NCBI GenBank assembly: GCA_002964805.2
Contig: PUDQ02000071.1
Coordinates: 1 to 64,000 of the forward strand
Direction of reading: 5' to 3'
DNA: 64,000 nt
Origin: Trametes villosa
Taxonomy: Eukaryota > Basidiomycota > Agaricomycetes > Polyporales > Polyporaceae
The notes beneath the pieces are model-generated. The model did not search any database, was not told where the DNA came from, and saw only the letters and a list, made by a program, of their open reading frames with translations. This document shows, piece after piece, positions 5,403 through 49,709 of the stretch (positions are counted from its first letter, which is position 1; every line of letters begins with the position of its first letter). The position numbers and the translations under genes are program-made.

Positions 5403-5405
5403 TAA

Positions 5406-18841: not shown

Positions 18842-19972
18842 TCAGCCCTCTCTCCCCCTAACCAGCGGTCTGAAGACGACCGAGCCCACCCCGGATGAGT
18901 AGACGACCTGGTTGTCCACCAGACGGATCGGAATGCGCAGAGGCTCGTAGTTGCGAAGCCAGGGACAGTGGGGAGTTGTATGAGACGTGGCCCCTGTGTC
19001 TGCATTCCAATCAACGTCAGCATCAAGCTGGAGAGGAGATAGAGCGTCCCCAGGGTCAGGGAGACGGAGACTTGCGCTGCCAGCAAACTCCTGGATGGAG
19101 GAGGACGTGGGGGACGTGTCCTGGGCCTTGTTTGCGCTCTCAGTGCGCGGCTTGCGCGGTTCCTGGGCCTGCTTCTGCGCGCGCTGGAACTTGAAGCACT
19201 GGGACATGGTGTGGTTGTCCCGGTGGCAGAACTCGCACTTGGAGCGAGGGGAGTGCGTTGCAGAGGCAGAGAGGGCGGTGGACGACGCCAGGGACGTCTC
19301 AGAGGTGTGGGAGCGGTTGATCTCGTGGTTCTGGAAGGCAGAGACGATGGTGGCCTTGCTGAGCTTGTCCTGGAGCAGGAGAGCGTCGATGAGGGAGGTG
19401 TACTGGTCCGGGAGGGCCCGGATGAGCGCCATGGACTGCAGCTCGTCGTTGAGGTCCTTCAGGGTGAAGTTCTGGGGGCGGAGATTCTGGATGGAGCGCA
19501 TGGACTCCTCAACGCGAGCAGAAAGCGAGGAGAGGGACTCATCCTCGCTTTTCCGGATGGAGAAGAGGGTGTTGTAGGCGTTGAAGCATGCCCCAGGGCG
19601 ACGGACGACGTGGGCAGCCTCCAGCTTCTTCCAGATCTCGACAGGATCGTCCTCAGAGCCAGCAAAGTGGATTCGCTGCTCAGGCTCCACAGCAAGGAAG
19701 ATCTCACCGGCAGCCTTCTCCTCGCGCCTCAGCCACTCCTTCTGCTTCTCCTCGTCCTCAGAGGGCATGGACTCGGTTCCCTTGACCAGAGACCAGAGGC
19801 CGTGCTTCGACAAGCATTGTAAGCATATTCCCTGCCATTGGTTCCACTGCCCATCACCTCTAGCAGCTTGAAAAGGACATTGGACCACATTTTGGAGCTC
19901 TCTAATGACAAACAAGACTATGCTCACGCGCCACACTTGTGCCCAATTGGGAGTGCATGGTTTGCATTGCAA
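18842..19972 (-). pseudogene. Ty1/copia Gag and protease fragment
   Basis: A 376-codon open frame runs from 19972 down to 18842. It contains a copia-type Gag domain (PVEIWKKLEAAH, then ALPDQYTSLIDALL), a zinc knuckle CEFCHRDNHTMSQC (CX2CX4HX4C), and the start of the aspartic protease (WNADTGATSH). The frame ends soon after the protease motif instead of continuing into integrase, and no integrase or RT follows on this strand. It is a 5' fragment of a copia element, opposite in orientation to the copia remnant at 14981-16873, so either an inversion split one element or two elements were joined. Confidence 0.85.
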
Positions 19973-31484: not shown

Positions 31485-31635
31485 GTATGAAGGAGAGAGC
31501 ACCCCCTATCCTGCCGACCTAAACAGGAAATAAGTGCCCGCGCTCCGGGGCCACCAGAAAAGGAGGGAGGCCTGGGAGATAAGGGATGTGGCTGATCAGA
31601 AGAGATAAGGCTGCTATCTCTTCAGAATAGCTACA

Positions 31636-31922
31636 TGTAACGACCCTCTGCGGTCGTTATGGGTTCTTGCAGGACATAGCGCTAGTTGCGCTATGTCGCG
31701 AGCTGTACCTAGCGCTAGTTGCGCTAGGATAAGATACCGCGTAGATATCATGTAGTAGATAGACGCGTACGACGCGCGGGTATTCGGAGCCCGCGCGTCT
31801 GGTGAGGGCAGCCTTCTACATCTGCCCCACCATCTTCCGAGTACGCCGAGCCCTAATAGAGCCCGGACCAGAGTACTTGGAAGCCGCGGGCAACAGAAGT
31901 GCCCGACCCCGTGAGTTTTACA
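31636..31922 (+). repeat. 5' LTR (287 bp)
   Basis: TGTAACGACC...GTTTTACA, preceded by CTACA. It contains stems: GACATAGCGC/GCGCTATGTC, CCTAGCGC/GCGCTAGG and GACGCGCGGG/CCCGCGCGTC. The last is perfect here but has one mismatch in the 3' LTR. It differs from the 3' LTR by one base after GGTCGTTA and one in that stem. Confidence 0.95.
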
Positions 31923-32026
31923 CTTTTTTACTCTTACCGTGTTAGAATCGCCCGATTTGGGGCTCGACGTGCAACCACGTCATCGAACTCTAATCCCCTA
32001 GCAACCCCCATCCGCATCCAGCAAGA
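31923..32026 (+). other. Leader between 5' LTR and gag
   Basis: It starts CTTTTTTACTC. I could not match a primer-binding site to a specific tRNA. A GACGTG/CACGTC hairpin is present near 31965-31980. Confidence 0.4.
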
Positions 32027-32109
32027 ATGAGCCACCACAGCTCAAACAACCCCACGGACCCACGAACTCCGCAGGCCTCGACTTCTACCTCGAACCAACC
32101 CCCCCGCGC
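32027..32109 (+). pseudogene. gag: gag of hairpin element, 5' part before hAT
   Basis: Starts at ATG 32027 and encodes 27 residues rich in Ser, Thr, Asn and Pro before the hAT target duplication (CCCCGCGC, 32102-32109). The same frame resumes after the second duplication at 39651, so the insertion is what breaks the gene. Confidence 0.8.
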
Positions 32110-32110
32110 T

Positions 32111-33366
32111 AAGGCTGGCCTCGGATCTACCTACAGGTTATCCGGACCCAGACCTATAGGTATTGCCCGGTTCAGGGGGTCCCACCTAGACCCGGACATG
32201 ACCCGGACCCCGGATGACCCGGACCCGGGAGACCCGGACCCAGAACCTATAGGTTACCCGGTATCGGATCCGTACAATGAGAACTGGTTCATCCTCTTTG
32301 AAACTTCGTAGCAGCATTCCTAGACGTCCAAGCAGCGATTTTACAAAAAATCATCATGATCTGATTGATACTGTAGCCGCTATGGGCAGTACAAGCCTGA
32401 GGGTGCAAGAGGAGGCCAACCTTCTCCTCCTGAGCTATCTACCGGTTGAATACACCTGAAAACTACCCCTGGTGCTCTCTTGATAGCCCGGACCATGTTT
32501 TGGTAGTTTACATGGGCGACTGTGCTCCAAATAACGCGGCAGATAGCGAATGAAATCCGTCATGCGCAATTAAGCGCCCAGACTATCTGCTCCTCGAAGG
32601 TTACTGGCCTCTAGCTACACCGAGACCCGCACACTTGTGTAGGGTAATTCCAAGCCGAATGTGTTCCTACCGCCCGCGCACGGCCAGTTGTAGGCGCGCG
32701 CGGCCAACGCGCGTGCTTACGCGATTGGAATGTTCTTCCTTCCTGTATATATGTCCCTAGTAAGTGATCTCCAACCGGTGCGCAGCCCCGCGAGCCATCG
32801 CGCAAGCATAGCCGGCGTGAGGGCGCGTGGGTGTGACATTCGGCACGCCGCGATTTTCTACTGGGTATATGAGGTGTTAGGTGTCGCGCGTGAATACTGG
32901 TGAGGGGCGTGCACTAGCGTGGAGGTTGAGGCAGGTGAGGCCGGGTGCAAGTACGAGGCAGGGCAGACGAGACAGCTGAGGTCGCGCGCGCGAGTATTGT
33001 TGAAGCCGCGCGCGCGCATTGTCTCCTGGATGGACAAGGGCGGATGGGGACTGCCGACGTCATGCGCGGAAGGTGCGCAGAAGGTGCAGCCGCGCACCTT
33101 GCCTTGCAACCAAGCGCGGAGGACGTGCGGGGCTCAGAAGTGCACAAGCCCTTTCCGGAACTCGAGGGCGTTCATCCTCAGCCGTCAGCGTTGAACGCGG
33201 GAGCGGGAGGCAGTCGCCCGAAGGGAGCAGACAGCGCGCGTGCAAGATACAGAGCGCGCGTGCAAGATACATGAGGGACAAGGATACATGAGGGACAAGG
33301 ATACATAGTCTAGGAGCCGCGCTCGCGCGGCCCAGGAGTGCTTGGCAATACGACAACATTCGAAGA
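32111..33366. other. Left subterminal region of hAT
   Basis: Direct and inverted repeats of CCGGACCC/GGGTCCGG-like units occupy about 32125-32270. From 32600 on it is rich in GCGCGC tracts, with a short tandem duplication near 33235-33305 (ACATGAGGGACAAGGAT repeated). Short frames here look like chance. Confidence 0.5.
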
Positions 33367-36300
33367 CTACTCCAATTCAATGACCTCCGCATGTGCCGCG
33401 CCCGCGCGCGCAGATGGTCCCACCTCTGCGGCATCTCCATCGTCCTCCGCAGCGCGAGTCTTGCGGGTGGCATTCGGGGTGAGCACCTTCTCGAGGGCGT
33501 CCTGGTCGACAACTTCCGGGATGCGCGCCCAGGAACCCACGACGGTTCCGGAACGAACAGACTCGTCATTCAACGAATGACGCAGCCGCGAGACTGTGAG
33601 GTGGCCGCGCGAAAAAGCGCGCTCGGCATCAGTTGAGGAACCTATAAGGACGACAGGTAGTTAGAGCAAAGCAAGGTGGGTATTACGAGAGACCTACCGG
33701 GCGCAGAGAGGAAATCCAACGCCATCTGGGCTAAGGCGCGGTCCGAGGCGGCGGCGTCGCTGGTGCTCTTCAGGACGAGGTCCCAATACTTGAGGGGATC
33801 CTCGACTGTCGTGAGCGGGGGCGTCTCCAGGTACGTCTGCAACGCGTCGGCAGGCGTCTTGTTCTTCTTCGCGAGTGTGGAGAACAGTCGCTGGGTATTC
33901 CCAGCCGCGCCCTGCCACAAGAACACGTTAGAATACATGCACACCCCGGCGAGCTCGCAAGCGGGGTACGTACTCGAGTCGCCCCAGCTTGGGCACTCAT
34001 CCGGCCTTCCTTCCCTGTCGCGCTCGTCGCAGCCGACGCACCTGTTGCATCCGTCGCGCCCGTCGCGCTCGTCAAGGGAGGAGCATCAGCGCGCTCCTTG
34101 CCCTTGTTTACGGGCCAAGAGCGCGGGCGCGGGACATTGCGCGACGACGACGCGCTGTCTGTGTGTGGGGTCATGGTCAGCTCGTGAAAGTCTCCATCTA
34201 CATGCACACGTAGCGTACCGTTCGCGTTGCCGTCCGCGCGGTTCGGCGCAGGGGCCGGCGGCGGCTTGTAGTGCTCACGCCATTTGGCGGAGATGAGGTC
34301 GACAGCTTCTTCAATCCACTCTTTCGGCCACTCTTGCTGCGCGAAATATTCAGTCTTGTATGCCGGGTGCAGGACTATAGAATGCAGGCATGTCAGCTAG
34401 TAGATCAGGGAGAGGCTATCGGAGGATTATCTTACTCATGGAAACGCGATAGACGATGGACTCGTCTGTCAGCTGGTAGTACTTGTCCAAAATTGCGCGG
34501 CCGCGCTTCGCCGCCGCGCGCACGCAAGGCTCGAGCTTCTCGTTGCTTGCGAACTCGTCGACATGTCGGGTTAGAACGTCCGTGTACGGGATGATTTCGT
34601 GCACCAGGGTGCACGAGCTTGTCGAGATTTGGTGGGTAGCAAACAGAAAAGGCTGTAATTTATCCAGTGTCAGCGCAAGGAATATAGCGAGCAGGAGTGA
34701 ACGAGCGGAAGGCTCACATCAAGCAGCTCGGAGAGATGATCTAACATCGTCCATTCTTCGTCGGAAATAATGAACCGACGGAGCCGGACGCCGCCCTTCT
34801 TGTTGAATTGGGCCTTGTCACACAGCTCTGTCAGTACGGAGCGCATCTCGAGCGCACGCTGGATGACTTCGGTGACTGTGTTCCAGCGCGTCTTCACAGA
34901 GCGCACGAGGACGGACGCGTTGAGGTTCGCGTCGGCGGCGAGTTTCGCGAGCTCCGCGCGCACGGTAGGGCTATTCCACACTTTGCGCGAGAGTTTCATA
35001 ATCTACGAAAAGGTCAGCGAACGCCCAATGCGCGGAGCCTGCAACCATACCTTCTCGAGCGCGAGTTGCCCGAACGTGATCTCCTCGCGCGTGAGCACGA
35101 GCTCCGGGTTGTCCTCGTCGAGGTTGTCGAGCAGGAGCTCATCCGCAGCCTCGCGATCTTCATCCGCCTCTCTGGCCGCCTGGACTTCTTCGTCATCGAC
35201 GTCTCCATCGTCGAGATCGGCTACCGCTTGGGGAAGGTCTTCGCTCCCCGCCGGGTCGTCAGAGTCTTCGTCCGACGCACGTTTGTGGTGTCCAAACTGC
35301 GACAGGATAGCCTAGAATAGTGTGTCAGTTGGGATAGCACAAGGCGTATAGATGGAAGATCACCTTCACGATCAGATTGAGCACATGCCCAAAGCACCGG
35401 ACGTGGAGGGCAGTACTGCGGTAGCCGGGGATAAGCTCCATCATGCGCTTGAGCATGACGGTGTTGTTTTCGGCATTGTCGCAAGTAAGGACATGGATCT
35501 AATGCGAAACAGTCACGCGGAGTGAGCATCGAGCACCGAGCGCGAGCGCGAATGAGCCTGGCCTGCTTACCTTGTGCGCGATGCCGTAGTCGTTGAGACA
35601 CTCGACGAGGGCCTCGGCCAGATGCACGCCCGTGTGTGCCTTCGTTAATCTGTTATTTATGCTAGTCAGTACTGGAAGCCCGGCAGGGGCGGAGACATTC
35701 CAGACGAACCTGACAAAGTCGAGGATTACATGCTCAATCTCTCCCTCATGGTGCCAATGCGCCGTGACACCGAGGAAGGCGAGGACGTTGGGGGAAGTCC
35801 ACCCATCGACACAAATATGTATCTTCCCCGGGAGCTCCTGGAAGAGTGGGGCCGCCATGATCAGTACGGCGGCGGTAACAAACAGCGCGAGTGACGCCTT
35901 ACTGCAAGTAGCTTCTTCATATTCCCCTTGGCGTGCTTGTAGATCGTCTTGACGTCGCGAGAGACGGTCTTGCGGGAAGGGAGCTTGACCTTCCCATACA
36001 GCATGCGCAGTATCTGGCCGAACTCGGGGTCTTCGACGATGGCGAACGGGCGGTGTCGGCGAGCACACCAGAGGGCGAGTAGGACGCGAAGGCGCGCGGG
36101 CGAGTACTCGATGCCGCTCGCATACGCGGTGAGCAACTCCGCCTCCGGAGTGGCGTCAGGCTCGCAGGCGTCAACATGCCGCTTCAAGTTTCCGGTTGAG
36201 TCTTCGTAGTCAGTACGATCTACGTGCTTCGAAGGATGTCTACAGCACAAGGTTAGCAGATACTCAGAAGGGACTTGTGTGGGCGTCACTCACTTCTTGC

Positions 36301-36844
36301 AGACGAAACGGTACACCGAGGTCCCGTTAGGTCCGGCTACAATACGCGGCGCGTGGAAATGCTTATAAACGCTCGATCTCCACCCCTTCGAGACGACAGC
36401 TACATTGCGAGCGCGTCAGGAAGGCTCATAATTTAGTATGAAGGTCAAATGCTTACCGAGGATGGCCTCGGGGGTCATGCCCTTGTACCGCTCTTGAAAC
36501 CGGCCTCGCTTGGTGGTAGCAGAGAGTACCGTACGGCGGACGCGACTGGTGCGCACAGCCACCGCGGCCACGCCGCCATCAGTAGCGTCTGCGCCGTCGT
36601 CGCTGCCGCCCGCGTCAGCGGCGTTCTGTGAGCCGACGGGAGCAGCAGCGGCCAGACGCGGTGGACTCCCCTCGCGGCTGCTGCCGTCCGGCGGAGAGCT
36701 AGCAGCTCTCACCGGAGCGTCCTTGAGGCGCTTCTTGGGCGGGCTACGGACATCCGAGGGGCGCGACGAGCAACGTCCGTCGGCCGGCTGCGCAGCGCCG
36801 GAGTTGACGTCGCGGGAGCGCTTGGGAGCGGGGTTATCGGGCAT
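33367..36844 (-). CDS. hAT transposase, 941 aa, 12 exons
   Basis: Exons (+ coordinates): 36457-36844, 36294-36399, 35903-36239, 35710-35837, 35571-35649, 35364-35498, 35051-35311, 34718-35002, 34436-34652, 33974-34374, 33698-33911, 33367-33641. All 11 introns are 48-72 bp with GT/AG ends and the phases join to 942 codons. Residues about 130-200 form a BED-type zinc finger (VYKHF, CKKHPSKH, NLKRHVDAC). The RNase H-like core has D288 in VDGWTSPN, D353 in TCDNAENN and the HVRCFGHVLNLIVK motif, followed by KTRWNTV. A low-complexity Ser/Ala/Thr insert lies in exon 10. The C-terminal dimerisation region has YLETPPLTTVEDPLKYW and SSTDAERAFSRG. The protein would cut and join the ends of this element and of shorter relatives. 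The gene looks intact. Confidence 0.9.
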
Positions 36845-38074
36845 GGGTGTACGTAGGGCTGAGGGGCGAAGCGTGGGGTTAAGACGCGAAGAGATGGGGC
36901 ACAATGAGCGGTGGAGAGGCTCACTGAAGACGAGTGGGCACAGGCCCGCTTTTTAACCCGTTGAGACCTGCCGAGTGCGGGCCGAGCTCTGAGCGGACGA
37001 GCGGCCATGAGGAACCTGTCGACGCGCAATAAGTCAGCAGGCTAGAGCGATATAACGAGCAGCAACGCTCACCAAGCAGGAGCAGCTTTGGCACATGGTA
37101 CTGCTATCTGTAAGTCCAAGAGCGTTGATGGAGACTCGCCGCAAGGCGGGCAGCATGCTCTTGAGGTTGACGAAGGAGATAGCGTCGTTAGCCAATCGTA
37201 CAGCGGATGAAAAAAATCCTGAAGAGCTCACAGGGCGACCCAGAGCCCTTGAAGACCTGCGGGCTTGCGATTGAGACGTATCTCTCAGTTTTGCGCAGCA
37301 GAGACGATGTGGGCGGGGGAGAGATCAGAAGCACACACCAGGGACACTGGTGAGGCCCTTGCTGGAAGCTTCTTGTCAGTCGAGTCTCGCCATGGAGCCT
37401 GTGGATGGCACGGCCTACCGAAGATAAGTCCATCGATGGAGGCAAGGAGAGCCCGGGGGATACGTGGCGAAAGAGAGCAGCAGGCGAGCTGGATGTGCGT
37501 CTGTGCCCCCGCGCGGTTGACATCCGGTGCTCCCACACACCATTCTAAGACAGCTGCCCACGCACAGACCCGCGCGAGGGCGCCCGTAGTACATCTGCAC
37601 GTTCAACCGTCTCGACCTCGGACTCTACGTCCTGTAGCACGACACCAAGCGCAACAACAACAGCGGGTGCACGACTCCCATCGATACCGCCTTGTTTCTT
37701 ACTTGGGCTAGTGCGCCATTCCTGCTGATCCGCATTGTTCTGCTCAACCCGACCACGCACCTACGGTACATGCGCCTTGAAGACTAGCCCTCGTTCAACC
37801 CTGCGACGACCATATGCTTCCGTGGCATGTGGCCGGAGTGTTTGCGCCGATAACAGGGCACGAGGTCGTGCTCGTTCGACCTCGCAAAGATTGCGCCAGG
37901 CCGGCGGCGCGCAGACGAACATGCTTCCGCACGCGCTCGCGCTGCCCATTCCGCCCAAGCCCCCTGGCCGTCCGACGTATATCTACAGGTACGGTCCCTG
38001 TCCTTTCCATCGCCCTCACCCGCTGAATCGTCAACCCCGCCTTCGCCCGTAGCCCGCCTCTCCTCGTTGACGCT
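36845..38074. promoter_or_regulatory. Divergent intergenic region of hAT
   Basis: 1.23 kb between the two hAT start codons. It must hold both promoters; I could not pick certain TATA boxes. Several short frames occur, but none joins convincingly to either gene. Confidence 0.4.
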
Positions 38075-39319
38075 ATGATGAACGTAACCCTAGAAGGTGC
38101 TGACATGTACCTCCGCGTCGACTCGTCGCGCGTGACGCGCTATCTCGTCCACGACGAGCCAATGCCCGCCGTGACGCTCATCGTCTACGGGCCGACGTAT
38201 GCCTTGACGGTAAGCCATCCGCCGGTGTTGTGTTTCGTAACCGCTATGCGCCCATACTTACTATGCGCGACGCCGTACAGCTGCTCTTTCCCACGGACGA
38301 CCTCCAGGATCTCAGCCTCGCGAACGTCAACACCTGGATATCGCTGTTCCACGGCCCCCTGAGGTCTCAGTGCAAGGCCTCGGAGGATCAATTCGACACG
38401 CTTATGGACGTCGCCCTCACCTACCGCGCTTTTGCCACCCATCACGATCAACTCACCCCGCAAGACTTCGTCGACTTCACCGATCGGCTCATCCGGGCGG
38501 CCATGGAGCTCCATCCCCTCGAGTCCGCGGACGACGAGCTTCAAGAGCTCGTCGGCTGGCTGCACGTTAACATGCCTGAGGTACGCCCGCGCCACCGGCC
38601 TTGCTGCACTATCGTAGTACTAACTATCAGATCACAGGATATCTATGATTGTCCGGAACTCCGCGCCGACTACGCGAACGAGGCTCAACAAGTGCACGGC
38701 TCCCCGATCGCACCGTTCACAATACCGAACGCGGTCATGCGCACACTCCACCGCCTCTCCATCGACCGCGCTCGGCGCAACTCCGCGGGCGACGATACCC
38801 CGACTGCAGCTGGCGAACCCGCGGGCGAGAACGACGACCGTGCTCGCGCCAGCCCGGGCGGATCCCTCGCGACTACTGCGGCCACCGTCGGGCCTGCCGT
38901 GCTCAATGGCGCTACCGGCGCGCCTGGCGCCCCGCACACGATGGGTCCTCCTCACGCGTCCCCGCTCGGTGATACCGCGGGTCCGCGCGGACGCGCACCT
39001 TACAAGGACGCGCGCGTGCGCAGTGGTAAGGCTCTTCTGTGCTCTTCGATTGCAAAAGCCTCATGCTGATCTTTCATCAGCACACGGCGGACGCGCGACC
39101 GCCCAGGATCGCAGCGCACCCGCGCGCGCACCGCGCTCTCCACTTGGCACTAACACGGCTTCGTCGTCGCCGGCCACCCCGCCGCCTGCCACCCCGGACG
39201 ACTCGGTGAGCGACTGTGACTCTGACAATGACTCCGTCCCGTCTCTCGAGACGGTTACGGAGTCCGAAGATCCGGAGGGGGAGTTTTCCAGCGACGAGAA
39301 CGACAGTGACTTTGATTGA
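38075..39319 (+). CDS. hAT accessory protein of unknown function, 353 aa
   Basis: Four-exon model: 38075-38209, 38281-38580, 38638-39025, 39081-39319. Introns of 71, 57 and 55 bp have GT/AG ends, and the exons sum to 1062 nt, an exact reading frame. The N-terminal 200 residues look folded (LLFPTDDLQDLSLANVNTWI, then LTYRAFATHHDQLTPQDFVD, then ELQELVGWLHVNMPE). The middle is Ala/Pro/Gly-rich, and the last 50 residues are strongly acidic with Ser/Asp/Glu runs. No transposase, zinc finger or enzyme motif was recognised. It lies divergently from the transposase inside the TIRs, so it moves with the element. It might assist transposition, bind DNA or be cargo; I cannot tell which. Confidence 0.7.
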
Positions 39320-39650
39320 CTCTGATACTAACAAGATAGCGGTATAGTCCTCCTTAGTACTGCATACAAACACACTGTAGATCTGCTAGGGCTTTAGAAG
39401 AATGCGATATGATTGTCCACCGTCTCTCTGAACTCCAGCGGGTCTCCGATGTTGCAGTCTGTTGTGTGTTTTCGTCGATTGCGAGACCCTAACCCGCAGC
39501 GGATCGCCACCGGATCGGGAGGGGGCACCTAGACCCGCGCCCATCCGGGCGCCTAGGTCACCTAGATCCGTGCGAGCCGGACCTGTGGGTGCGGCTCCAG
39601 GTCCGGACGGGTTGAACCGGTCGCAGACCCGGAGCCGGTGGCCAGCCTTA

Positions 39651-41435
39651 CCCCGCGCTGAGTTCGGCGCGGGTCAACCCGCCACATCACTCCCTCGGTC
39701 TACAGAGGGCGAGGGTGGACCCTCGATACCACAATCAGTGGTATCCGGCGGCTTAGACGACACCACGAACCCTACTAGGGGTCGTGCGACTGCCAGCGTG
39801 CATGCTGGACGACCGGCTTCAGAACAAGCAGGCCCGTCACGACGATCGGGCTCCGCTGCAAGCTCACTTAACAGTCAGAGTCTTGCCAAAATTGGGCAAA
39901 ACTGGCAGGATCTGCGTGAAGGACGCTCGCAGCAGTTGGCTGCGAGCTCGTCAGTGCCGGCGGCACTGGCACTGAACCTTGCGCCGTTGCGCATGGTAGT
40001 TCGGGAATCGAAGAAACGATTCCGTCTGCTGCAGAAGCAGATACTCGAGGCAGAGAACGAGACGAATCTCGCTCTGCAGTCCGCACTAGCGGAATTAGGC
40101 CTAGGTAACCTAATGGATGAAGAAGACGAGGAGGACCTTACCGCTCGCGCCATAGCGGTAAGTGAGGATGCCGATGCAGGGCACCACATTCATCAGCCTA
40201 TCGTGGCTGGTGAGGATGAAAGCGACGAGTTGCCTATGACAAGGGCAACCATAGACACACATATCAGCTCAGCTGCTGATCCGCAAATGGAGAACTTCGC
40301 GGATGATCGCGAAGTAGAGGATGCACTTTTGGATCCTCGCCAGTGCATTGTCGCTGGCCGGATTGAACGACTGAGTCGTGCAGGGCTGTATGACCCACCG
40401 CACACAACGGCGCAACTACCGTCGTCCTCATCAGTTCGCCGCACTGGCGATGCACAGACTGCCGTTCCTACTCGGAACGAGGCATTCGATCATCAGCAAG
40501 GCTCGACCAGGGCTGCGCACGTCGCGCAGCCAATCCCATCCTCGCCCAGCGACTATCCCGCTGAGCCTATGTCTGCGTCCCAAGGACCCGCGTACCGTCA
40601 AGAACGGCCGCCTGGACTATGGGACTGGAAACACCCTCGACGCTCAATGGGAGTGTCTGCATATTACGGAGGATTACCTCCTATGCAGCCAGCGGAAACT
40701 ACGGAACCGCTGGCATACACGGGGCCTGTAGTAGGGCCTCGTGATGGTGTAACGATCAGCCGTCTCGTACGGATGATAGATGAGATGGTCGGATCACCTC
40801 CAGAGGGTGATCCCCCTGCGTACTTGAAGGTGGCGAAACTTGCGCCACCCAAGACGTACGAGGGGAAAGACAATCTCGATGCACTCGAGGTATGGCTGCG
40901 AGGCCTCCTCGAGTACTTCAACACGTTGAGGATCACGGGTCCTAGGATGGACCGTGACCGTGTCCGAATATTGGGCACTGCACTTAGCGGTGATGCCGCT
41001 ACGTGGTTCTACAACACTATACAGTCTCCATCGCGTGATAAGCGTGACTGGATATTCGAGGAAGCTGTAATAGCCCTCTATCGCAGATTCATCCATAAGA
41101 ATTTGAATCTGCTGGCGGAGCAACAATATGCTTCGCTAGTTTACCGCTCCAGTGACGGAGGGGTTGCAGCTTTATATGAGAAGCTGCTGTACATATCCGA
41201 ACGGATGTGGGAAAAGCCTACGCCCTTCCAATTGCGTAGGAAGTTTATTGAGGTGTTACCCGAAGACATCGAGTACCTACTTACCGTTGTTAACGGTATG
41301 TCTCCTCAAGAACACGACTTGGCACAGTTGTACCAAGTTGCTCAAGATATTGAGCAGAAGTCGCGCGCTATGCGGCTTCGCAAGTTAGCTCGCGAACCTT
41401 CGCGAGCACATACAATACCGAACACCCGGTGCTAA
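39651..41435 (+). pseudogene. gag: gag of hairpin element, main part
   Basis: Resumes the 32027 frame directly after the hAT target duplication and runs to a TAA at 41433-41435. A Ser-rich head is followed by a coiled-coil-like stretch (about 39990-40110) and, from about 40830, a retrotransposon Gag capsid domain (KTYEGKDNLDALEVWLRGLL, then WIFEEAVIALYRRF, then RKFIEVLPEDI). The next frame (+1) is already open through 41400-41470 and carries on with the nucleocapsid, so the stop is best explained by a 1-nt change near the CCC at 41425-41427. Two lesions therefore disable Gag here: the hAT insertion and this frame change. Confidence 0.8.
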
Positions 41436-42606
41436 GCCGACGGTAGAGGCACGCCCGCAACGAGGAGTGCGTAATGTACTTAGGAAGCCAACGGCTTCGG
41501 CTTCCCGTAGTAATAATATTACGACGCATAAAGCTACTACTGGCTTTAAACACCCTTCGACAGATGTGCGAGGTGGTTCGGTACCGCGTCAGTCTGGCGC
41601 AGTGCAGCAATCCGCGTCAACTGCGCGGATTGACAAGACTCAGAAAGCACCTCTTAAGTGCTATTCCTGTGGTCAAATAGGCCACTTCGCAAGCGACGCG
41701 AAATGTCCCAACTACGGGAAAAAATCTGCTACAGTACAGCGGATGTTCGCTCAGCGTGTCATCTACGACACGTCGGACGACGGCAACGAGCCGTCTGCAC
41801 AACAAGACGTTGCCGACAATAATGCGGCAACTCATCCCGAGGATCAAGAGCCTGAACTCGAGGCTCTTGCGGATAGCCCAGACGACAACGAAGAATATCC
41901 GTTGTCAGACTATGGTCTGGAAGGATCTCAGTATGATCCTGACGAGGATCATTACGCATCTCCGGGAGAGGGAGATGCAGATGAGTATTTCATCGCGATG
42001 CGTATTGCACCGCTAGAAGAGGCCGAAGCTGAGCCTCTTCGGTTACACACCATGGCTGTTGCACCCACGCGAGGGTACAAGCAGGCCTGGCTATACGACA
42101 ATAAGATACGTCGTATAGACGATCCCGCGGCGCAACCCGTGCGCACGCTCCAGGCCCAGCGCACGTTATGCACTGAGATTACCATCAATAAGGTCACAGC
42201 TCTGGCCTTATTCGACTCGGGCTGCACGACCAATTCGATTACGCCAGAGTTGGCGTATTTGAGTCGCGCAGATCGTATCGATCTGGCGCAGCCTGTAGGG
42301 CTGCAATTGGGAACCAAGGGCAGCAAGACGCGCATCAATTATGGTGCGCAAGCAGAGCTCAAGGTGGGCTCTGTGAATACTACGCAATATTTTGACGTAG
42401 TAGACATCGATAAGTACGATGTCGTGTTGGGAACTGCCTTCTGCAGGAAGCATGGAGTAATCCTAGACTTCCGTGCAGGTACGGTAGTAATCAACGGCAA
42501 GAGTTTGCCGTTGTTCGATCCTGAGGTTTCGACGACTGCGAAACCCGAACCCAAGAAATGGGTTCCTCGATTTCAATTCGAAGGTACTGCTAAACCTAAG
42601 CAGTAG
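41428..42606 (+). pseudogene. Nucleocapsid and aspartic protease of hairpin element
   Basis: The frame has no ATG of its own near the start and continues gag after a +1 change. A zinc knuckle CYSCGQIGHFASDAKC lies at about 41659-41706. A long acidic segment follows (about 41770-42010), then the protease domain with LFDSGCTTNSITPELAYL (about 42208-42260) and DVVLGTAFCRKHG. It ends at a TAG, 42604-42606. The same frame is open beyond the TAG to 42981, so the stop is isolated. Confidence 0.75.
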
Positions 42607-42892
42607 GACAACGTAGCGAGTTCCACAAGAGTGGAACCTCCCCACTCTCGTTACGACAAGTCCGGAGGGTCGTCAGGAGGGGGAGGGAACGGTGTAGAAA
42701 CCGTTAAGATTCCTGAACGACACCAAGGGCGAGCCAAAGATAGCTCGCCGCCAAACATTGGCGAAAAATTCATTCCGACGATGCATTCGTCGCGAGGTCC
42801 TAGAAGGGACAAGTATGGGTACGAGGATCCATACGGTATCAATGAGCTCTTGGACAAGATAGCCAAGGAGCAGTGGGAAGACAAACAGATCC
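42607..42892 (+). pseudogene. Linker between protease and RT
   Basis: In frame with the protease after the TAG, this reads as a Gly/Ser-rich, charged linker ending in IAKEQWEDKQIR. The RT frame (+1) then carries DEPTLDIMRPAPEHLPPF from about 42893, so a second frame change lies near 42885-42895. Confidence 0.6.
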
Positions 42893-45800
42893 GACGAACC
42901 CACGCTGGACATTATGCGTCCTGCGCCGGAGCATCTCCCGCCGTTCCGGGAGATCAACCACCATATCCCGCTCATCGATGAAGCGAAGAAATATCACTAT
43001 CATCTCCCACGTTGCGCGGACGTGGTGAAGCCAGAACTCATAGCGAAAACCAATCGCTATGTAAAGGCAGGCTGGTGGCGACCGGTAACGGTCACGCAAG
43101 CAGCGCCTCTGCTATGCGTTGCCAAGAAGAATGGCAAGCTGCGCACCGTACTCGATGCGCGACAACAAAACCAGAACACGGTGCACGACCTGACACCGTT
43201 TCCGGATCAAGACCAGATCCGGATGGACGTTGCTCGAGCGAAGTATCGCTCGAAGATTGATCTGTCCGACGCCTACGAACAGATCCGCATAGTTGCGGAG
43301 GACGTGTGGAAGACCGCGTTTGCGACACCTTACGGGATGTTTGTGAGCGAGGTCATGCAACAGGGCGACACCAACGCCCCGTCCACGTTCCAACGTCTCA
43401 TGACAGCCATATTTCGTGACTGTATCGGAAGGTTCGTCCATGTATATTTGGACGACATTTTCGTATTTTCGGACTCCAAGGAGGAGCACGAAGAACACTT
43501 AAGGATAGTGTTCGAAAAGCTTCGAGAGGCGAAGCTTTTCCTAAGCCGCAGCAAGTGCGACTTATACTCCAAAGATTTGGATTGCCTCGGTCACCGAATA
43601 GATGACAAGGGACTACACGCCGATAAGGACAAGATGAGCCGTATCAGGAACTGGTGGACACCTCGCTCGTATAACGAGGTGCAGCGGTTCCTCGGACTAG
43701 TGAACTATCTGGCACATTTTATGCCAGATGTAACGGCGTACACATCGCCGTTATCGGACATGGTCCATAATGACCGTCCGTTTGTATGGCGCGCACTGCA
43801 CGACAAGTGCTTTGAATCTATCAAAGCACTCGCGTGTAAGGTGCCCATACTGAAGCCGATAGATCCGGCTTCCACAGATCCCATTTGGTTGATCTGTGAT
43901 GCATCCGTGTATGGACTCGGAGCGTTATACGGGCAAGGACCCGACTGGCAAACTTGCAGGCCAGCCGGGTTCCTGTCGAAGAAATTTACGTCCGCACAAC
44001 GGGCGTATTGCACCTACGAGCAAGAAGCGCTCGCAATCATGGAAGGCTTGTTCAAATGGGAGGACAAGCTCATAGGACGAAAGCTCAATATAGTCACTGA
44101 CCATAGAGCTCTCGAGTTCCTTGAGGGACTCGAGCGTCCTAACCACCGTCAGATACGGTGGTACGAATTCTTGTCGAGGTTCGACAAGACGATTACCTAT
44201 ATTCCAGGTAAACTGAACAAAGTAGCGGACTGTTTGTCCCGCTACTTCGAACACGACGACATAGAGGAACTAGCCGAAGATTTCGACTATGTTAATGCCG
44301 ACTTGCGGCTAGATCCTGAAGGGGATGATCTCCCCTTCTCCCGACTCATCGAGCTACGCGCAGCTCGAGTGTTGCGTCGATCTGCGCGGAAACTCGCGCA
44401 GCTAGAAACAGAAAACGCGCACGCTACACGCGTGCAAGAACCAATAGAGGAACGAGTCGTAGAATCGGCTCGTTACGCTGCACACGCACCTATCTCGGTG
44501 ACTGCAGCAACCACGGACAGCGACAATGTGACGCTGTCGGACTCGCTATCTGCGGGTCCCTCTTTGCGTGTATGGGTAGAAGGAGACGACGGCTTTCTGA
44601 AAGCCGTCAAGTCAGGTTATGTTGATGACCCGACGTTCCAGAAAATACTGGAACGGCCTACTCAGCATCGCGCATTCGTAATGCGCGAGGGTGTGATATA
44701 CACCAAGAACCGCAAAGGCGACGAGGTACTATGTATACCTCGTGGTCTGTATCGGAAACGAGCACTACAAGAGCTCGTGTTAGACCAAGCGCATAGCGCG
44801 CTTGGACACCTTGGACCTCAGCGCACGTCAGAATACGTGCGCAAGTGGTTTTGGTGGCCCGCGTTGCGCAAGGATGTAGATAAATTCTGCATTTCGTGCG
44901 GCGTGTGCCACACCACGAAAATAAGTACACAGCCCCCTATAGGGCTGTTACATTCGCTACCGATACCTACGGTGCCATGGACGTCTATGTCCATGGATTT
45001 CTTCGGCCCGTTTCCGCCCTCGCACGGATACGACTACATATGGATTGTAGTCTGTCGGTTGACCTCGATGGTACACCTCATACCCATCAAGACAACCGAC
45101 ACAGCATCAGACCTGGTGCTGGTCTACTTCCGGGAAGTAGTCCGTCTACACGGGCTACCGGACTCCATAGTCTCTGATAGAGACTCGAAGTTCACTTCCA
45201 AGTTCTGGAAGGAGCTGCATCGCCTCATGGGGGCGAAGCTGCTTATGTCCACGTCATTCCATCCACAGACGGATGGATTATCTGAGCGTAGTATACGCTC
45301 AGTGTCGCAGATACTCCGTGCACTGGTAGCTCCTGACCAGTTGGACTGGTATGAGAAGCTACCGATAGCGGAGTTCGCTATCAACTCTGCGGTAAGTTCT
45401 ACCACAGGGTTCGCTCCGTTCGAACTGAACTACGGGTATCTCCCGTGTTCTATGAACGGAATCAGAACGGACACTCCGTTTCAAGGAGTGCGAGAGTTCG
45501 CACTCAGAGCCAAGGCGAATTTGGAGATGGCGCATGATGCCATCATCGAGGTGCGAGTGCGCCAGACACACTATGCGAATAAGCATAGGCAAGCCGAACC
45601 CGACTTCGAGGTCGGGGACAAGGTATACCTATCGACAAAGAATTTGTCGATACCTAAGGGTAGAGCACGGAAACTCGTGCCTAAGTACATCGGACCGTAT
45701 GCTATAATCGAAAGCATACCCAGTACGTCAAACTACGTACTGGAGTTACCAGAAGAACTCCAGAACCGAAGGATACACCCTCGGTTCCACGCGTCGCTAT

Positions 45801-46012
45801 TACGACGCTATGAACCAAACGACGATGCGGTATTCCCGCATCGTGAAGCGAAGTCGTATTACGACTTCGGCAATGAAGACTCCACCGAATGGTTGGTGGA
45901 AGAGATTATTGGCCACGAATGGAATGGCAACAAGTGCCAGTTCCACGTGCGGTGGACGATGGGGGACCATACCTGGGAACCCTACGAGCACTGCAAGGAG
46001 CTCGTAGCATGA
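42893..46012 (+). CDS. pol: RT-RNase H-integrase-chromodomain of hairpin element
   Basis: The first ATG in frame is 42914, but the conserved sequence begins slightly before it, so this is a segment of a longer Pol. Reverse transcriptase has KIDLSDAYEQIRI and YLDD (43445-43456). RNase H has ICDASVYGLGALYG, YCTYEQEALAI and VTDHRALEFLEG. Integrase has the zinc finger (H..H, CISCGVCH), the first aspartate in SMDFFGPF (44996), the second in VSDRDSKF, and the glutamate in QTDGLSERSIRSV. The C-terminus (from about 45884) is chromodomain-like (WLVEEIIGHEWNG, FHVRWTMGDHTWEPYEHC). The segment has no internal stop and all key residues. Many synonymous positions form perfect hairpins, for example 44821-44842 and 44975-44996. 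Confidence 0.9.
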   Translation, partial: DEPTLDIMRPAPEHLPPFREINHHIPLIDEAKKYHYHLPRCADVVKPELIAKTNRYVKAGWWRPVTVTQAAPLLCVAKKNGKLRTVLDARQQNQNTVHDLTPFPDQDQIRMDVARAKYRSKIDLSDAYEQIRIVAEDVWKTAFATPYGMFVSEVMQQGDTNAPSTFQRLMTAIFRDCIGRFVHVYLDDIFVFSDSKEEHEEHLRIVFEKLREAKLFLSRSKCDLYSKDLDCLGHRIDDKGLHADKDKMSRIRNWWTPRSYNEVQRFLGLVNYLAHFMPDVTAYTSPLSDMVHNDRPFVWRALHDKCFESIKALACKVPILKPIDPASTDPIWLICDASVYGLGALYGQGPDWQTCRPAGFLSKKFTSAQRAYCTYEQEALAIMEGLFKWEDKLIGRKLNIVTDHRALEFLEGLERPNHRQIRWYEFLSRFDKTITYIPGKLNKVADCLSRYFEHDDIEELAEDFDYVNADLRLDPEGDDLPFSRLIELRAARVLRRSARKLAQLETENAHATRVQEPIEERVVESARYAAHAPISVTAATTDSDNVTLSDSLSAGPSLRVWVEGDDGFLKAVKSGYVDDPTFQKILERPTQHRAFVMREGVIYTKNRKGDEVLCIPRGLYRKRALQELVLDQAHSALGHLGPQRTSEYVRKWFWWPALRKDVDKFCISCGVCHTTKISTQPPIGLLHSLPIPTVPWTSMSMDFFGPFPPSHGYDYIWIVVCRLTSMVHLIPIKTTDTASDLVLVYFREVVRLHGLPDSIVSDRDSKFTSKFWKELHRLMGAKLLMSTSFHPQTDGLSERSIRSVSQILRALVAPDQLDWYEKLPIAEFAINSAVSSTTGFAPFELNYGYLPCSMNGIRTDTPFQGVREFALRAKANLEMAHDAIIEVRVRQTHYANKHRQAEPDFEVGDKVYLSTKNLSIPKGRARKLVPKYIGPYAIIESIPSTSNYVLELPEELQNRRIHPRFHASLLRRYEPNDDAVFPHREAKSYYDFGNEDSTEWLVEEIIGHEWNGNKCQFHVRWTMGDHTWEPYEHCKELVA

Positions 46013-46331
46013 GACGAGTATTGTCGTCTAATGGGCGTGTCATCTTGGCGCGCGTTACCCAAGAAAGCATCCGCCAAAACTTAGCGGATGCACGAAGCGC
46101 AACATGCGCTCCGTGGTTAAGAACACCCGAATGGGTAGTCGTGGTGAAGGACAGAGCGCGCGCAGAGAGCGCGTGACCGTGAAGTAGTACATCACGTGCA
46201 GGCTCGCGTGCACGAGGCAGCCACCGACGTGTTCGGACTCCGCCGGCGCTTTAAGACGGCGACCTCGCGAATGCAGGGTCATAACCAACCTCTGTCAGCT
46301 CACCACCACCACCAACCACAACGCCCACACC
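46013..46331 (+). other. Gap between pol and extra frame
   Basis: Non-coding, with perfect hairpins such as GCATCCGC/GCGGATGC (about 46068-46092), CGTGCA/TGCACG (about 46195-46214) and AGCGCA/TGCGCT. It could hold a subgenomic promoter or splice acceptor for the downstream frame; none was certain. Confidence 0.5.
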
Positions 46332-47423
46332 ATGAACGACACCCCGCAAGACAATGCGCAAGCCAGTGGCTCCGGGCAGCAAGCCTCGGAGCAACAGGGG
46401 TCGCACCCAGCGGCCCCTCAACAACAAAACATCCCTTTCCCCCAACCCTCGCAGTTCTTGCTGCCGCAACAAGCGGCAGCTTCCGCGTTCTCGTCCATGC
46501 CAGGGGTAACCCACCCCCAGCAGTTCCCGCATGCCTTCTCGCAGGGCATGCCCGCCTACGGGTTTCCGTACGGCGGTGGCTTCCAGTTCCCGCATCAAGC
46601 GGGTCCTTCATTCCAGAGCGCGCCCAGCTCGAGCGCGCCAATGCCACAGACTGGTGGCATCCCCCTTATGCCCTTCTCGAGCATGACCTGGGCGCCCGTA
46701 GCGGGCCAACATTTGTTGGTCGCGCACAGCGACAACTGCGCTGTGTGCGCGGACTTTGTCCGCCACTACAACTCGGCGGTGTCAGACTCGACGTTCCAGG
46801 ACGCGCAGACGCGCGTCCAGTCAGAACTGCAGCAGCGGTTCTGGCGGCACTTCGAGGAGCACCAGAGGGTGGAGGAGGGGAGGAGCCGCGATCGGATCGC
46901 GGAGCTCGAGGCGAAGCTCCAGAAGATGAAGGAGCTCGTCGACGAGACGAAGTCGATCCGGGACAGGTACCGGAGCGAGCGTGAGGCCGCTCGCCAGGAG
47001 CGCAACGAGTACAAGCGCGAGCGCGACGAAGTGCGCTCGCAGTTGGAGGCTGAGCTCAGTCGGGCTCGGCACAGGAGGGCATCGCCTCCGCGTGACGAAC
47101 GACGACGCGACCCGAGGGAACTCAGCCCTCGGAGGAGGGATACTGCAAACGATAGATCGTTCGCATCGACATCAAGGAGCTCAGCGCCGTCCGCTGGGCC
47201 CAGCTTGATGCCGATCGTGTCGCTGCCCAGCGGGGCAGGACCATCGAGGACTGGAGCATCGCAGATGACGACGCCAAATGTGGCAGGACCGTCGAACTCG
47301 ACGGCGATGCCGACCTCGTCGACATCCGCGGACCGGGACCACCCTATGGTGGACTGGGAGAACGCGACGAGCGACGAGGACGACGATATCGACGAGAGGT
47401 GGATCGAGAGACTCGTCTCTTGA
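46332..47423 (+). CDS. Extra frame in env position, N-terminal part (363 aa)
   Basis: Starts at ATG 46332 and ends at TGA 47421-47423. Residues 1-120 are Gln/Pro/Phe-rich and look disordered. A short Cys/His-bearing piece follows (HLLVAHSDNCAVCADFVRHY). About 155-250 form a long, highly charged coiled coil (RIAELEAKLQKMKEL, then KRERDEVRSQLEAELSR). The end is Ser/Arg-rich, then acidic. No signal peptide, membrane segment or fusion-like region is seen, so it does not resemble an envelope protein. The frame stays open past the TGA to 48899. It is part of this element: it lies inside the LTRs and shows the same hairpin packing. I recognise no family. Confidence 0.7.
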   Translation: MNDTPQDNAQASGSGQQASEQQGSHPAAPQQQNIPFPQPSQFLLPQQAAASAFSSMPGVTHPQQFPHAFSQGMPAYGFPYGGGFQFPHQAGPSFQSAPSSSAPMPQTGGIPLMPFSSMTWAPVAGQHLLVAHSDNCAVCADFVRHYNSAVSDSTFQDAQTRVQSELQQRFWRHFEEHQRVEEGRSRDRIAELEAKLQKMKELVDETKSIRDRYRSEREAARQERNEYKRERDEVRSQLEAELSRARHRRASPPRDERRRDPRELSPRRRDTANDRSFASTSRSSAPSAGPSLMPIVSLPSGAGPSRTGASQMTTPNVAGPSNSTAMPTSSTSADRDHPMVDWENATSDEDDDIDERWIERLVS

Positions 47424-48899
47424 AACCGGTATCGTCGTGCTCGTCGCGACACTGGCCCGGCACATGCTCTGGGTCAGGGCGCGCCGTTTGGCACGCAACC
47501 TCCGCCGCAACCAGCGACGGATGTGGCGAGGGTCCCCGGGTGGCCGTACCACCTGTTGGCCCTCCCCACCGATTCGGACCCGCGTCTCGCGGGGCACTGG
47601 TACAACTACGTGCCGGTGTCCGTTGCGGACGCCAACAACATTATCATGGCTGCTCGCCGTGATACGGGTGAGGCGGCTCACCGCATCCGCGACCTAATTG
47701 GTCAAGTGAACTCCCGCTCGGAGTACACCGGAGTGGCTGGCCTCAACCAGCTACAATCGTCGTGGCGTCGAGAGGCGCCACCGCCGCTGATTGCGGCGGT
47801 TCAACGAGCCGACTCCCGGGGAAACACTCCCCCTGGACTCGAGCACGCGTCGACGGCGCACTTGCCGCCGCCGTCGTCAACCCTCTCGCGCAAGCGGACG
47901 CCCGCTGAGTGGCGGGAGGTCAAGCTGAAGCTGCGTGCCCAGCGCACGGCGCCGGCCCCAAACCAGCCGAGCTTCAGTGACCTGCCTGCTGTGTGGCAGG
48001 CCTGGTACGGCGTTGATGAACGCCGTATCCCTCTGTGGATGGAGCGGGAGCCAAATGGGCTTCCTACAACGCGCAGCGTGGAATACCACGTTGCCGTTCG
48101 AGCGATGCTGCCGCATGGCATGCCACTGGGGCCGCGAGGGCACTGGGTGACCCTCGCCCACTGGCTCTTCTCAGTGCCGGGGCTCTACCGTTACGCGGTA
48201 GAGCAGGGGCAGTACCCCGTAGGTACTAGCTACCACCCGGGCCCCTACCCCAACGACGTCGCAAGCATGACGTTGTTCCACCTAGCGCGCTGGTTTGCGG
48301 CGCGCAGCCTTACCCCAACGGCTGCGGAGCGGTGCCTACCGCTCGCCAGACTGTGCCGCAACGAGCGGAACGGGCGCGACCTTCGGTCGCTGCTGCCTCA
48401 AATGGATGGCGGCCCGAATTCGACCCTCGACGTCGGAGTCGTGCCCAGGTCGCGGGACTTGGGACCGGTCGCTACAGGCGGCCCACTACCACCCCCCAAC
48501 GCGCCCGCACCTGCACCCGCACCCGCACCCGCACCCGCACCCGCACCCGCACCCGCACCCCCGCAGGCGCCCGAGGCGCCTGCCGTTACCACCGACGACG
48601 TCGACATGACCGACGCGTCCACCACCACCGCCGCGACCGCCATAACTGCGGTCGCCGAACCGTCGAGCATTGCCTCGACCCCGTCACACGTAGTGGCGGG
48701 TACCTACCCCGATGACGGAGTCCCCCCTCCGCCGTACTCCCCCGCTCGTGCGATGGAGGACGTGCAGGAGGCACCCGTCGCCGGACCTTCCCAACCGCCT
48801 GCCGCTACTAGCGACAGGCACGACGAGAGCGAGAACGCGACGGGTGAGCAGGGATCCTCCCCTCTCACCCCGTCATCGCCCCACGACGACACCAGGTAG
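47424..48899 (+). CDS. Extra frame in env position, C-terminal part (491 aa)
   Basis: Same frame as 46332-47420, separated only by the TGA. It has no ATG near its start (the first plausible coding sequence is ARVPGWPYHLLALPTD at about 47523, preceded by GTG), which argues that it is translated as a continuation. The folded part, about 47530-48420, contains GHWYNYVPVSVADANNIIMA, then PAVWQAWYGVDERRIPLWME, then HWVTLAHWLFSVPGLYRYAV, then DVASMTLFHLARWFAARSLT. A (Pro-Ala)n run follows and an acidic Ser/Thr/Pro tail. Tryptophan- and tyrosine-rich, no membrane helix. Function unknown. A splice (GT at 47415, AG at 47476-47477, 63 nt, in frame) could remove the TGA, but the donor is poor. Confidence 0.65.
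   Translation, partial: NRYRRARRDTGPAHALGQGAPFGTQPPPQPATDVARVPGWPYHLLALPTDSDPRLAGHWYNYVPVSVADANNIIMAARRDTGEAAHRIRDLIGQVNSRSEYTGVAGLNQLQSSWRREAPPPLIAAVQRADSRGNTPPGLEHASTAHLPPPSSTLSRKRTPAEWREVKLKLRAQRTAPAPNQPSFSDLPAVWQAWYGVDERRIPLWMEREPNGLPTTRSVEYHVAVRAMLPHGMPLGPRGHWVTLAHWLFSVPGLYRYAVEQGQYPVGTSYHPGPYPNDVASMTLFHLARWFAARSLTPTAAERCLPLARLCRNERNGRDLRSLLPQMDGGPNSTLDVGVVPRSRDLGPVATGGPLPPPNAPAPAPAPAPAPAPAPAPAPPQAPEAPAVTTDDVDMTDASTTTAATAITAVAEPSSIASTPSHVVAGTYPDDGVPPPPYSPARAMEDVQEAPVAGPSQPPAATSDRHDESENATGEQGSSPLTPSSPHDDTR
48501..48565 (+). repeat. CACCCG hexamer array
   Basis: About nine near-perfect tandem copies of CACCCG inside the extra frame, encoding a Pro-Ala run. Probably length-variable by slippage. 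Confidence 0.85.
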
Positions 48900-49368
48900 G
48901 TGTCTAACAACAACTCTTCGAGTGCAACCATCATGCACTCGTCGTATACCATGACGGTATGACTGCAATTATTTGCAGTCCCTGTAGGAGACGATATTAT
49001 CGTCTCCTCGGGCATAACGCAACCGATCTGCGTCAAAAATTGATCGGTTCGTCCGCCATAGCTGCGGCACTAATGTACATAGCCGCACCTCACGGTGCGC
49101 GCATCCATAACCCAAAACAAAACATTACCATATCATGGTAGTGTAGTGTTATGACTGCTACTATCTGCAGTCGTGTATATATCCCACTACACTGCTGTGA
49201 CCACACTGTGAGCCTACTTGGCTCACTGACTCATTGTATATATGAGTTGCGCACGCACTATGCGCAACTCTTTGTATCATATAGTGCTAAGACTGCGAAT
49301 ATCAGCAGTCGTTCCTTTTATTATAATATTGTATTGTAGACCCGTACAACGGGTCTAGAGGGGGAGAG
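48900..49368 (+). other. Hairpin-string non-coding segment before 3' LTR
   Basis: Nearly all of it is made of short perfect inverted repeats. Examples: 48919-48926/48934-48941 (8 bp, loop 7); 48961-48968/48973-48980 (8 bp, loop 4); 48987-48995/48999-49007 (9 bp, loop 3); 49208-49214/49220-49226 (7 bp, loop 5); 49243-49252/49260-49269 (10 bp, loop 7). At least 11 stems of 5 bp or more occur in 48961-49360. A GACTGC/GCAGTC stem recurs at about 49153 and 49290. No coding frame of note. Confidence 0.85.
49356..49368 (+). other. Polypurine tract of hairpin element
   Basis: The purine run AGAGGGGGAGAG lies immediately before the TGTAACGACC of the 3' LTR, the expected plus-strand primer. Confidence 0.85.
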
Positions 49369-49655
49369 TGTAACGACCCTCTGCGGTCGTTACGGGTTCT
49401 TGCAGGACATAGCGCTAGTTGCGCTATGTCGCGAGCTGTACCTAGCGCTAGTTGCGCTAGGATAAGATACCGCGTAGATATCATGTAGTAGATAGACGCG
49501 TACGACGCGCGGGTATTCGGAGCCCGCGTGTCTGGTGAGGGCAGCCTTCTACATCTGCCCCACCATCTTCCGAGTACGCCGAGCCCTAATAGAGCCCGGA
49601 CCAGAGTACTTGGAAGCCGCGGGCAACAGAAGTGCCCGACCCCGTGAGTTTTACA
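49369..49655 (+). repeat. 3' LTR (287 bp)
   Basis: TGTAACGACC...GTTTTACA followed by the CTACA duplication. Stems: 49370-49378/49385-49393 (9 bp), 49406-49415/49421-49430 (10 bp), 49441-49448/49454-49461 (8 bp), and GGGCAG/CTGCCC and GGGCA/TGCCC further on. Confidence 0.95.
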
Positions 49656-49709
49656 CTACATCTGCTATCTCTGGGGAGCTAGCAGGCCTCCCGGAGGCTG
49701 CCTACCTTA

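Follow-up and report, generated by a model that had tools for sequence, protein, structure and literature searches.

Short perfect hairpins saturate a Ty3/gypsy retrotransposon of Trametes villosa and point to probable selection on both strands

How does a mobile element come to be filled with short perfect inverted repeats, in coding and non-coding parts alike, and what keeps them there? The question is raised by an LTR (long terminal repeat) retrotransposon, here called the focal element, at positions 31636-49655 of a 64,000-nucleotide stretch of Trametes villosa DNA (GenBank assembly GCA_002964805.2, contig PUDQ02000071.1, positions 1 to 64,000 of the forward strand; hereafter the window). 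An earlier note on this DNA had reported hairpins in the LTRs, gag, pol, an extra frame and the non-coding parts, and the ten that it cited individually are all exact inverted repeats. We propose that saturation with short perfect Watson-Crick hairpins is kept by selection during replication, that both strands need to fold on themselves, and that the benefit would most likely be escape from RNA silencing, a proposal to which, taken whole, we give an even chance of being right.

The scan counted hairpins with a perfect stem of 7 bp or longer and a loop of 3-10 nt, and each region was compared with 40 dinucleotide shuffles. The 3′ part of the element (39651-49657) holds 106 such stems compared with 4.5 expected, an approximately 24-fold excess that becomes steeper for longer stems (61 vs 1.15 at 8 bp or more, 25 vs 0.3 at 9 bp or more), and the short 5′ part (31636-32109) holds four vs 0.12 expected. 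The saturation is not shared by a nested insert (32110-39650; 8 vs 4.8, and 4 vs 1.2 at 8 bp or more), which was analysed separately from the retrotransposon, by gypsy element 1 (position 68 to at least 5633, scanned as 68-5700; 3 vs 3.3) or by a copia region of approximate bounds (13000-20100; 4 vs 3.8), as had been judged by eye, and the densities of the latter two are far from equal to that of the element. There is a mild excess elsewhere in the window (11 vs 5.6 at 21-31 kb, 9 vs 3.0 at 49.7-56 kb and 10 vs 3.6 at 56-64 kb). The density of one hairpin every 30-60 bp given in the earlier note was overstated for stems of 7 bp or longer, which in the 3′ part occur on average once per ~94 bp (~72 bp in pol, ~140-165 bp in ORF3 and ORF4), and it is reached, at one per 58 bp, when stems of at least 6 bp are counted. 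The parts of the element referred to below are as follows.

31631-31635, no strand assigned: left copy of the target-site duplication CTACA, read from the flank
31636-49655, forward strand: the hairpin-rich Ty3/gypsy retrotransposon, delimited by its LTRs and the CTACA duplication
31636-31922, forward strand: 5′ LTR (TGTAAC...TTACA), from the LTR alignment, with four perfect 8-10 bp stems within 31638-31799
31923-32109, forward strand: leader, lying between the LTR and the inverted end and stopping at the nested insertion point
32110-39650, no strand assigned: nested insert, putatively the hAT element of the earlier note's label, with inverted ends TAAGGCTGGCC / GGCCAGCCTTA and an 8-bp duplication CCCCGCGC
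39651-49657, forward strand: hairpin-saturated 3′ part with the 106 stems
39759-41435, forward strand: gag, first frame, assigned by position
41389-42606, forward strand: gag 3′ part with a CCHC zinc knuckle (Pfam zf-CCHC above cut-off), and aspartic protease
42863-46012, forward strand: pol, with reverse transcriptase, RNase H and integrase with a Tf2-1-like SH3 domain, from Pfam
46067-46091, forward strand: hairpin with the sole paired substitution of the focal family, its outermost pair being G-C in the window and A-T in 23 other loci
46188-47423, forward strand: ORF3 (open reading frame 3), the extra frame downstream of pol
47424-48899, forward strand: ORF4, an open reading frame in frame with ORF3
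49369-49655, forward strand: 3′ LTR, with three LTR stems perfect (49370-49393, 49406-49430 and 49441-49461)
49656-49660, no strand assigned: right copy of CTACA, read from the flank

The near-identical LTRs (two differences in their alignment), the short target-site duplication and the gypsy domain order make the focal element a Ty3/gypsy LTR retrotransposon.

Is the excess a by-product of what the frames encode? When stems of at least 7 bp were counted in 1000 synonymous-codon shuffles per frame, the shuffle means were 0.91 for the first gag frame (14 stems observed), 1.05 for the gag 3′ part and protease (17), 2.2 for pol (43), 1.17 for ORF3 (9) and 1.7 for ORF4 (9), and in none of the five frames did a single shuffle reach the observed count. 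ORF3 has no stems, and no excess, at 9 bp or more. The controls from gypsy element 1 gave 0 stems vs 1.2 in gag and 3 vs 2.47 in pol, the latter a count reached by 456 of the 1000 shuffles. The dinucleotide and codon shuffles together rule out chance, base composition and codon usage as the source of the hairpins, and inserted mini-elements are ruled out in pol, where the hairpins sit in the codon alignment largely without gaps. The expectation that synonymous codon choice builds the coding stems holds for the most part. Phase-3 pairing (third position against third), the most protein-restrictive phase according to the accessible text of PMC6649704, is depleted, with 19 of 77 pairings compared with 30.5 predicted by the codon shuffles (P = 0.018 over phases). 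Along the branch specific to the focal family, stems show a nominally slight rise in second-position changes (11/222 vs 21/657).

Is the trait a property of the host, of a clade or of a family? The assembly (46.7 Mb in 140 contigs) was searched for relatives, and at least 32 further matches longer than 600 bp, some of them pieces of one copy, have 95-98% nucleotide identity to the element and define the focal family, while a sister family has ~70-73% identity to it. A scan of viral contigs for relatives returned none. The pol codon alignment used the 15 of 30 focal loci and four of seven sister copies that span nearly all of pol; L045, equal to L044 in pol, was omitted from the stem comparison, which set counts of stems (7 bp or more, loops of 3-12 nt) against codon-shuffle means. 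The focal family has 44-45 stems in pol vs ~2.5 (~17-fold), the sister family 9-13 vs 1.8-2.0 (~5-7-fold) and L044 13 vs 2.4 (~5-7-fold), followed by L047 (8 vs 2.3) and L043 (6 vs 2.4), and then by L042, L046, L048, L049 and L050, which are near chance (1-4 vs 1.4-2.4). The hairpin trait is thus graded among relatives in one gypsy clade, and the excess in L044, L043 and L047 hints at repeated gain or loss of hairpins within it. A range from ~17-fold to none within a single genome makes the cause of the trait amenable to comparative and experimental tests. No host-wide effect was seen in six other gypsy-type stretches drawn from 149 RNase H matches, which have 0, 3, 0, 0, 0 and 2 stems of at least 7 bp vs 0.6-1.5 expected; there is a mild excess in L052 (3 vs 0.7) and, for stems of at least 6 bp, in L055 (10 vs 4.9). 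Positions are little conserved between families, in that only 3 of 13 distinct hairpin axes of the sister coincide with a focal axis (1 of 13 in L044), which mostly rules out inheritance at fixed sites from the focal-sister ancestor.

Are the stems maintained once formed? Variants were compared among 29 focal loci, after L030, which overlaps L026 in one copy on contig C112, had been dropped; some other focal counts held both, and the main counts repeated without L030 stand. A variant was called shared when present in at least two loci, and variants in one copy were taken as mostly post-insertion. Shared variants occur at 32 of 1428 stem sites (2.2%), 36 of 574 loop sites (6.3%) and 194 of 4034 other sites (4.8%; stem vs other P = 1.3e-5), whereas one-copy variants are evenly spread (85 or 6.0% in stems, 30 or 5.2% in loops and 246 or 6.1% elsewhere; stem vs other P = 0.9). 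Removing CpG sites leaves shared variants at 18/1077, 29/525 and 128/3195 for stem, loop and other sites, and the contrast persists for variants in at least three loci (16, 25 and 103 of those sites). Since pooled stems are biased by the choice of the longest stem per axis, stems were also redefined copy by copy with eight references, in tests that overlap and are non-independent, and in all eight shared variants are rarer in stems than at other sites (P from 1.6e-6 to 0.035). At third codon positions the shared rates across the eight references are 2.2-3.7% in stems, 7.8-18.0% in loops and 6.0-11.2% elsewhere (12/391, 19/144 and 129/1290 with L006 as reference), and loops are the most variable class in all eight. 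As shared variants are depleted in stems at synonymous sites and one-copy variants differ little, selection for folding is supported, and the depletion would reflect purifying selection that acted on pairing while the lineage was active.

What does such selection act on? One candidate is a compact or protected genomic RNA, in which the sense strand alone matters, for packaging, nuclease protection or compaction, as in the genome-scale ordered RNA structure (GORS) described for some RNA viruses. Such a structure would act in the sense RNA, where G-U pairs should be tolerated. A transition within a stem turns the pair, as read in the sense RNA, into G-U or A-C, and focal shared transitions comprise 14 of GU-type and 16 of AC-type (40 vs 36 among one-copy changes); without CpG the ratios are 8:9 shared and 21:12 one-copy, and in the sister family 7:6 and 17:10. 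The two families pooled give 21 GU-type and 22 AC-type shared changes, such that a 2:1 tolerance is rejected (P = 0.012), and the G-U tolerance expected of GORS is not seen in them. An impression from the pol listing that stem variants are G-U-rich was not borne out by the full count. Near-miss stems of 8 bp with one mismatch also divide about evenly between G.T and A.C (59:51 in the window, 16:18 in the pol of another copy and 28:32 in the sister), the exception being L044, which leans to G.T (15 vs 7 in a small sample). Just outside the stems, the two bases that face each other at the first unpaired position are identical in 51 of 111 hairpins (~38 estimated from base frequencies); they are G.T in 7 hairpins and A.C in 20, and this latter ratio also speaks against a sense-only reading. 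The sense strand of the window copy folds at -36.5 kcal/mol per 100 nt compared with ~-27.1 in shuffled sequence, and the excess is ~-9.3 kcal/mol per 100 nt for the sense and ~-8.6 for the antisense strand, a slight sense advantage that, together with L044, is in favour of the GORS-like explanation. In the accessible text on a structured viral genome (PMC7642675), paired genome sites vary less, which is a further point for it, and the focal element resembles GORS in this and in folding above shuffled controls along its length; it differs in being an LTR retrotransposon whose hairpins are isolated, perfect, 7-11 bp in stem and nearly strand-symmetric. Given that G-U is no commoner than A-C and that the strands fold nearly equally, a folded genomic RNA fits poorly, and we consider the GORS-like explanation unlikely, although it ranks first among the rivals. 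Of the selection for a folded genomic RNA that the earlier note had suggested, the selection for folding is supported and the genomic-RNA part fits less well. In the focal family the constraint behaves as though both strands were important or as though nothing but perfect pairs would do. This symmetry points to a pressure on both polarities, either genomic RNA and first-strand complementary DNA, or sense and antisense RNA and small RNAs, and selection for self-folding of both strands is supported.

Could the hairpins instead be made and repaired by the replication process itself, without any advantage for the element? Template switching in the course of reverse transcription, or some other conversion between arms, would yield strict Watson-Crick pairing, strand symmetry, turnover of positions and restriction to certain elements, and the accessible text of PMC8794818 suggests template-switch creation and maintenance as the source of RNA-gene hairpins. 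The likeness is that this mechanism is able to make perfect stems; the difference is that neither the one-arm clusters nor the multi-base compensation of those hairpins (PMC8794818, as accessible) were found in the focal and sister families beyond two single paired changes. These two changes from one Watson-Crick pair to another, at 46067/46091 in the focal family and in an LTR of the sister, can be counted for template switching, but they are 1 of 735 pairs and 1 of 414, respectively, and ~18 would be expected in the focal family under unbiased arm-to-arm copying (P (<=1) = 2e-7), if half of the missing stem changes were copied to the other arm and mutation were equal in stems and elsewhere. 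Differences between focal and sister families fall evenly on the two arms (100 on the 5′ and 108 on the 3′ arm of 45 hairpins), and the per-hairpin arm imbalance is 62 compared with 98 +/- 27 in random windows (32 hairpins with complete columns). Mutation clusters, defined as at least three differences in 12 bp between copies and sought in 5 of 30 focal loci and four of seven sister copies, match a switch to a nearby inverted template in none of 24 focal cases and in 4 of 140 from the sister, with one place entering the count twice, and the sister copies, by reading, differ mostly by single stem steps. The idea of a reverse transcriptase that perfects palindromes by template switching thus gains support neither from paired substitutions nor from copied-strand signatures, and we regard it as improbable and as the last of the rivals. 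The closest analogue of perfect inverted repeats in coding genes is perhaps that of hairworm (Nematomorpha) mitochondria, where, in the accessible text of two reports (PMC6649704, PMC10380579), palindromes with arms of up to 284 bp are gained and lost at shifting places, repeat conversion is deemed likely and, among long ones, phase-3 pairings are disfavoured (PMC6649704). The focal arms, at 7-11 bp and with dozens in one gene, differ from these, and concerted change of the arms is not seen.

Does the geometry of the hairpins identify what recognizes them? With loops of up to 12 nt, 108 of 111 hairpins are non-overlapping. No regular spacing was found in gag or pol, where the hairpins are placed at random, and those of the 3′ third are somewhat clumped (95% of null sets are less clumped). 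Stem and loop lengths are negatively correlated in the focal family (rho -0.30, P = 0.0008) and in sister copy C28 (rho -0.39); in C45 and L044, with a stem minimum of 7 bp, the correlation is again negative and not significant. A span of 21 or 23 nt is the commonest in the focal family (46 of 121 hairpins) and 26 nt in C28 (9 of 47), with medians of 22 nt in the focal and 26 nt in the sister family (P = 7e-5), and the two families differ in loop parity (stems of 8 bp or more, P = 0.007). A chance model of inward extension accounts for part, not all, of the stem-loop correlation, and all of these geometry tests are exploratory, many cuts having been tried. One explanation for such preferences is that a family-specific protein, the product of gag or of ORF3/ORF4, would bind hairpins of set geometry that serve as putative dispersed sites. 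The differing spans and loop parity and the correlation beyond the inward-extension model are in keeping with this, as are seven hairpins of exactly a 10-bp stem and a 6-nt loop at sister locus L039, two of them in the LTR, all of which are closed by C-G. However, loops are the most variable sites, positions turn over, the hairpins are randomly spaced along gag and pol, the correlation is not significant in C45 and L044, and a reader of RNA stems should often accept G-U pairs; hence a binding protein seems improbable and comes second among the rivals, behind the sense-only structure. Separately, at positions 5920-5958 of L039 (reversed locus) two adjoining hairpins share bases; C45 completes the upstream hairpin and the other copies the downstream one, as if the two were competing.

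We return, then, to selection during replication with both strands self-folding. Hairpins would arise by point substitutions in both arms and would be retained by selection while the element replicates, through an agent that presumably senses both polarities. Dense local folding of the sense RNA, the antisense RNA and the small RNAs derived from them might block their mutual pairing, and blocked pairing might in turn allow a partial escape from RNA silencing. Lengths of 21 and 23 nt are within the usual size range of small RNAs. It is this match of the commonest focal spans, together with loops, positions and spacing that are largely free, that favours silencing escape, which we hold, with low confidence, to be the single most likely benefit and the weakest step of the argument. 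A bolder version, in which synonymous codons have been rewritten into a strand-symmetric coat of small-RNA-length hairpins that counters RNA silencing and was gained to differing degrees in more than one lineage of the gypsy clade, is conceivable but doubtful.

Several observations weigh against the proposal. The depletion of shared variants in stems is ~2- to 4-fold and incomplete, and rests on one genome; changes that arose in parallel, or contigs that are duplicated, may contribute to the shared class. Rates of one-copy variants too are slightly lower in stems in all eight references, significantly so in one of them for all sites (L012) and in two for third positions (L012 and L015). The trend is weaker in the sister family (shared variants at 13/788 stem vs 280/7789 other sites, P = 0.0035; stem vs loop P = 0.076), where stems are also poorer in one-copy variants (P = 0.047) and the contrast is not significant when stems are limited to 8 bp or more. 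Stems differ from the sister no less than other sites do and, if anything, slightly more (170 differences vs 150 +/- 11 in random windows), which suggests young stems or a recent constraint, and the overlap of focal and sister stem columns, 91 vs 53 by chance, implies that the turnover of positions is incomplete. With 43 shared changes a weaker G-U bias is still compatible, and L044 leans to G.T. The sister's 26-nt span fits small-RNA size less well, and the close cousins in the same host that have no excess (L042, L046, L048 and L049) indicate that silencing escape is no general need; the identity of the selective agent is a guess.

What do the hairpins represent in a wider context? Among the papers listed in searches of the open-licence literature, we found no retroelement described with comparable hairpin saturation. 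The yeast elements Ty3 and Ty1 belong to the same broad class and, according to the accessible text of PMC11381356, their genomic RNA is a mosaic in which stable local regions make up to 30%, but perfect-hairpin saturation is not described there. The focal element is a strong case of a single nucleic-acid property that pervades a mobile element from end to end, in coding and in non-coding parts, at no fixed sites and, most likely, through selection. It also provides a contrast case to template switching as a source of perfect hairpins and, if the proposed benefit is true, it may represent a novel means by which an element coexists with RNA silencing.

The remaining features of the element are those of its class and family. 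Above their Pfam cut-offs are RVT_1, RT_RNaseH, Integrase_H2C2, SH3_Tf2-1 and zf-CCHC; rve and the three models that match the aspartic protease fall below theirs, and the first gag frame has no Pfam family at E<=0.001. No known RNA family was matched in Rfam and no tRNA genes were found in the window. ORF3 contains, by eye, a long, charged, arginine-rich stretch that is coiled-coil-like, and it has one relative, from Lenzites betulinus, among 7991 scored candidates. Named protein relatives include Trametes sanguinea (75%), which, together with the ORF3 relative, fits a polypore host. Of 17 informative loci, 16 have a sense codon in place of the stop that divides ORF3 from ORF4 in the window copy. 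The pol of the window copy is ~3% from those of the other focal copies, most full-length members of which are within ~1% of L008, with L004 and L005 at ~2%, and near the start of pol the other copies carry 66 bp more than the window copy between two matching pieces.

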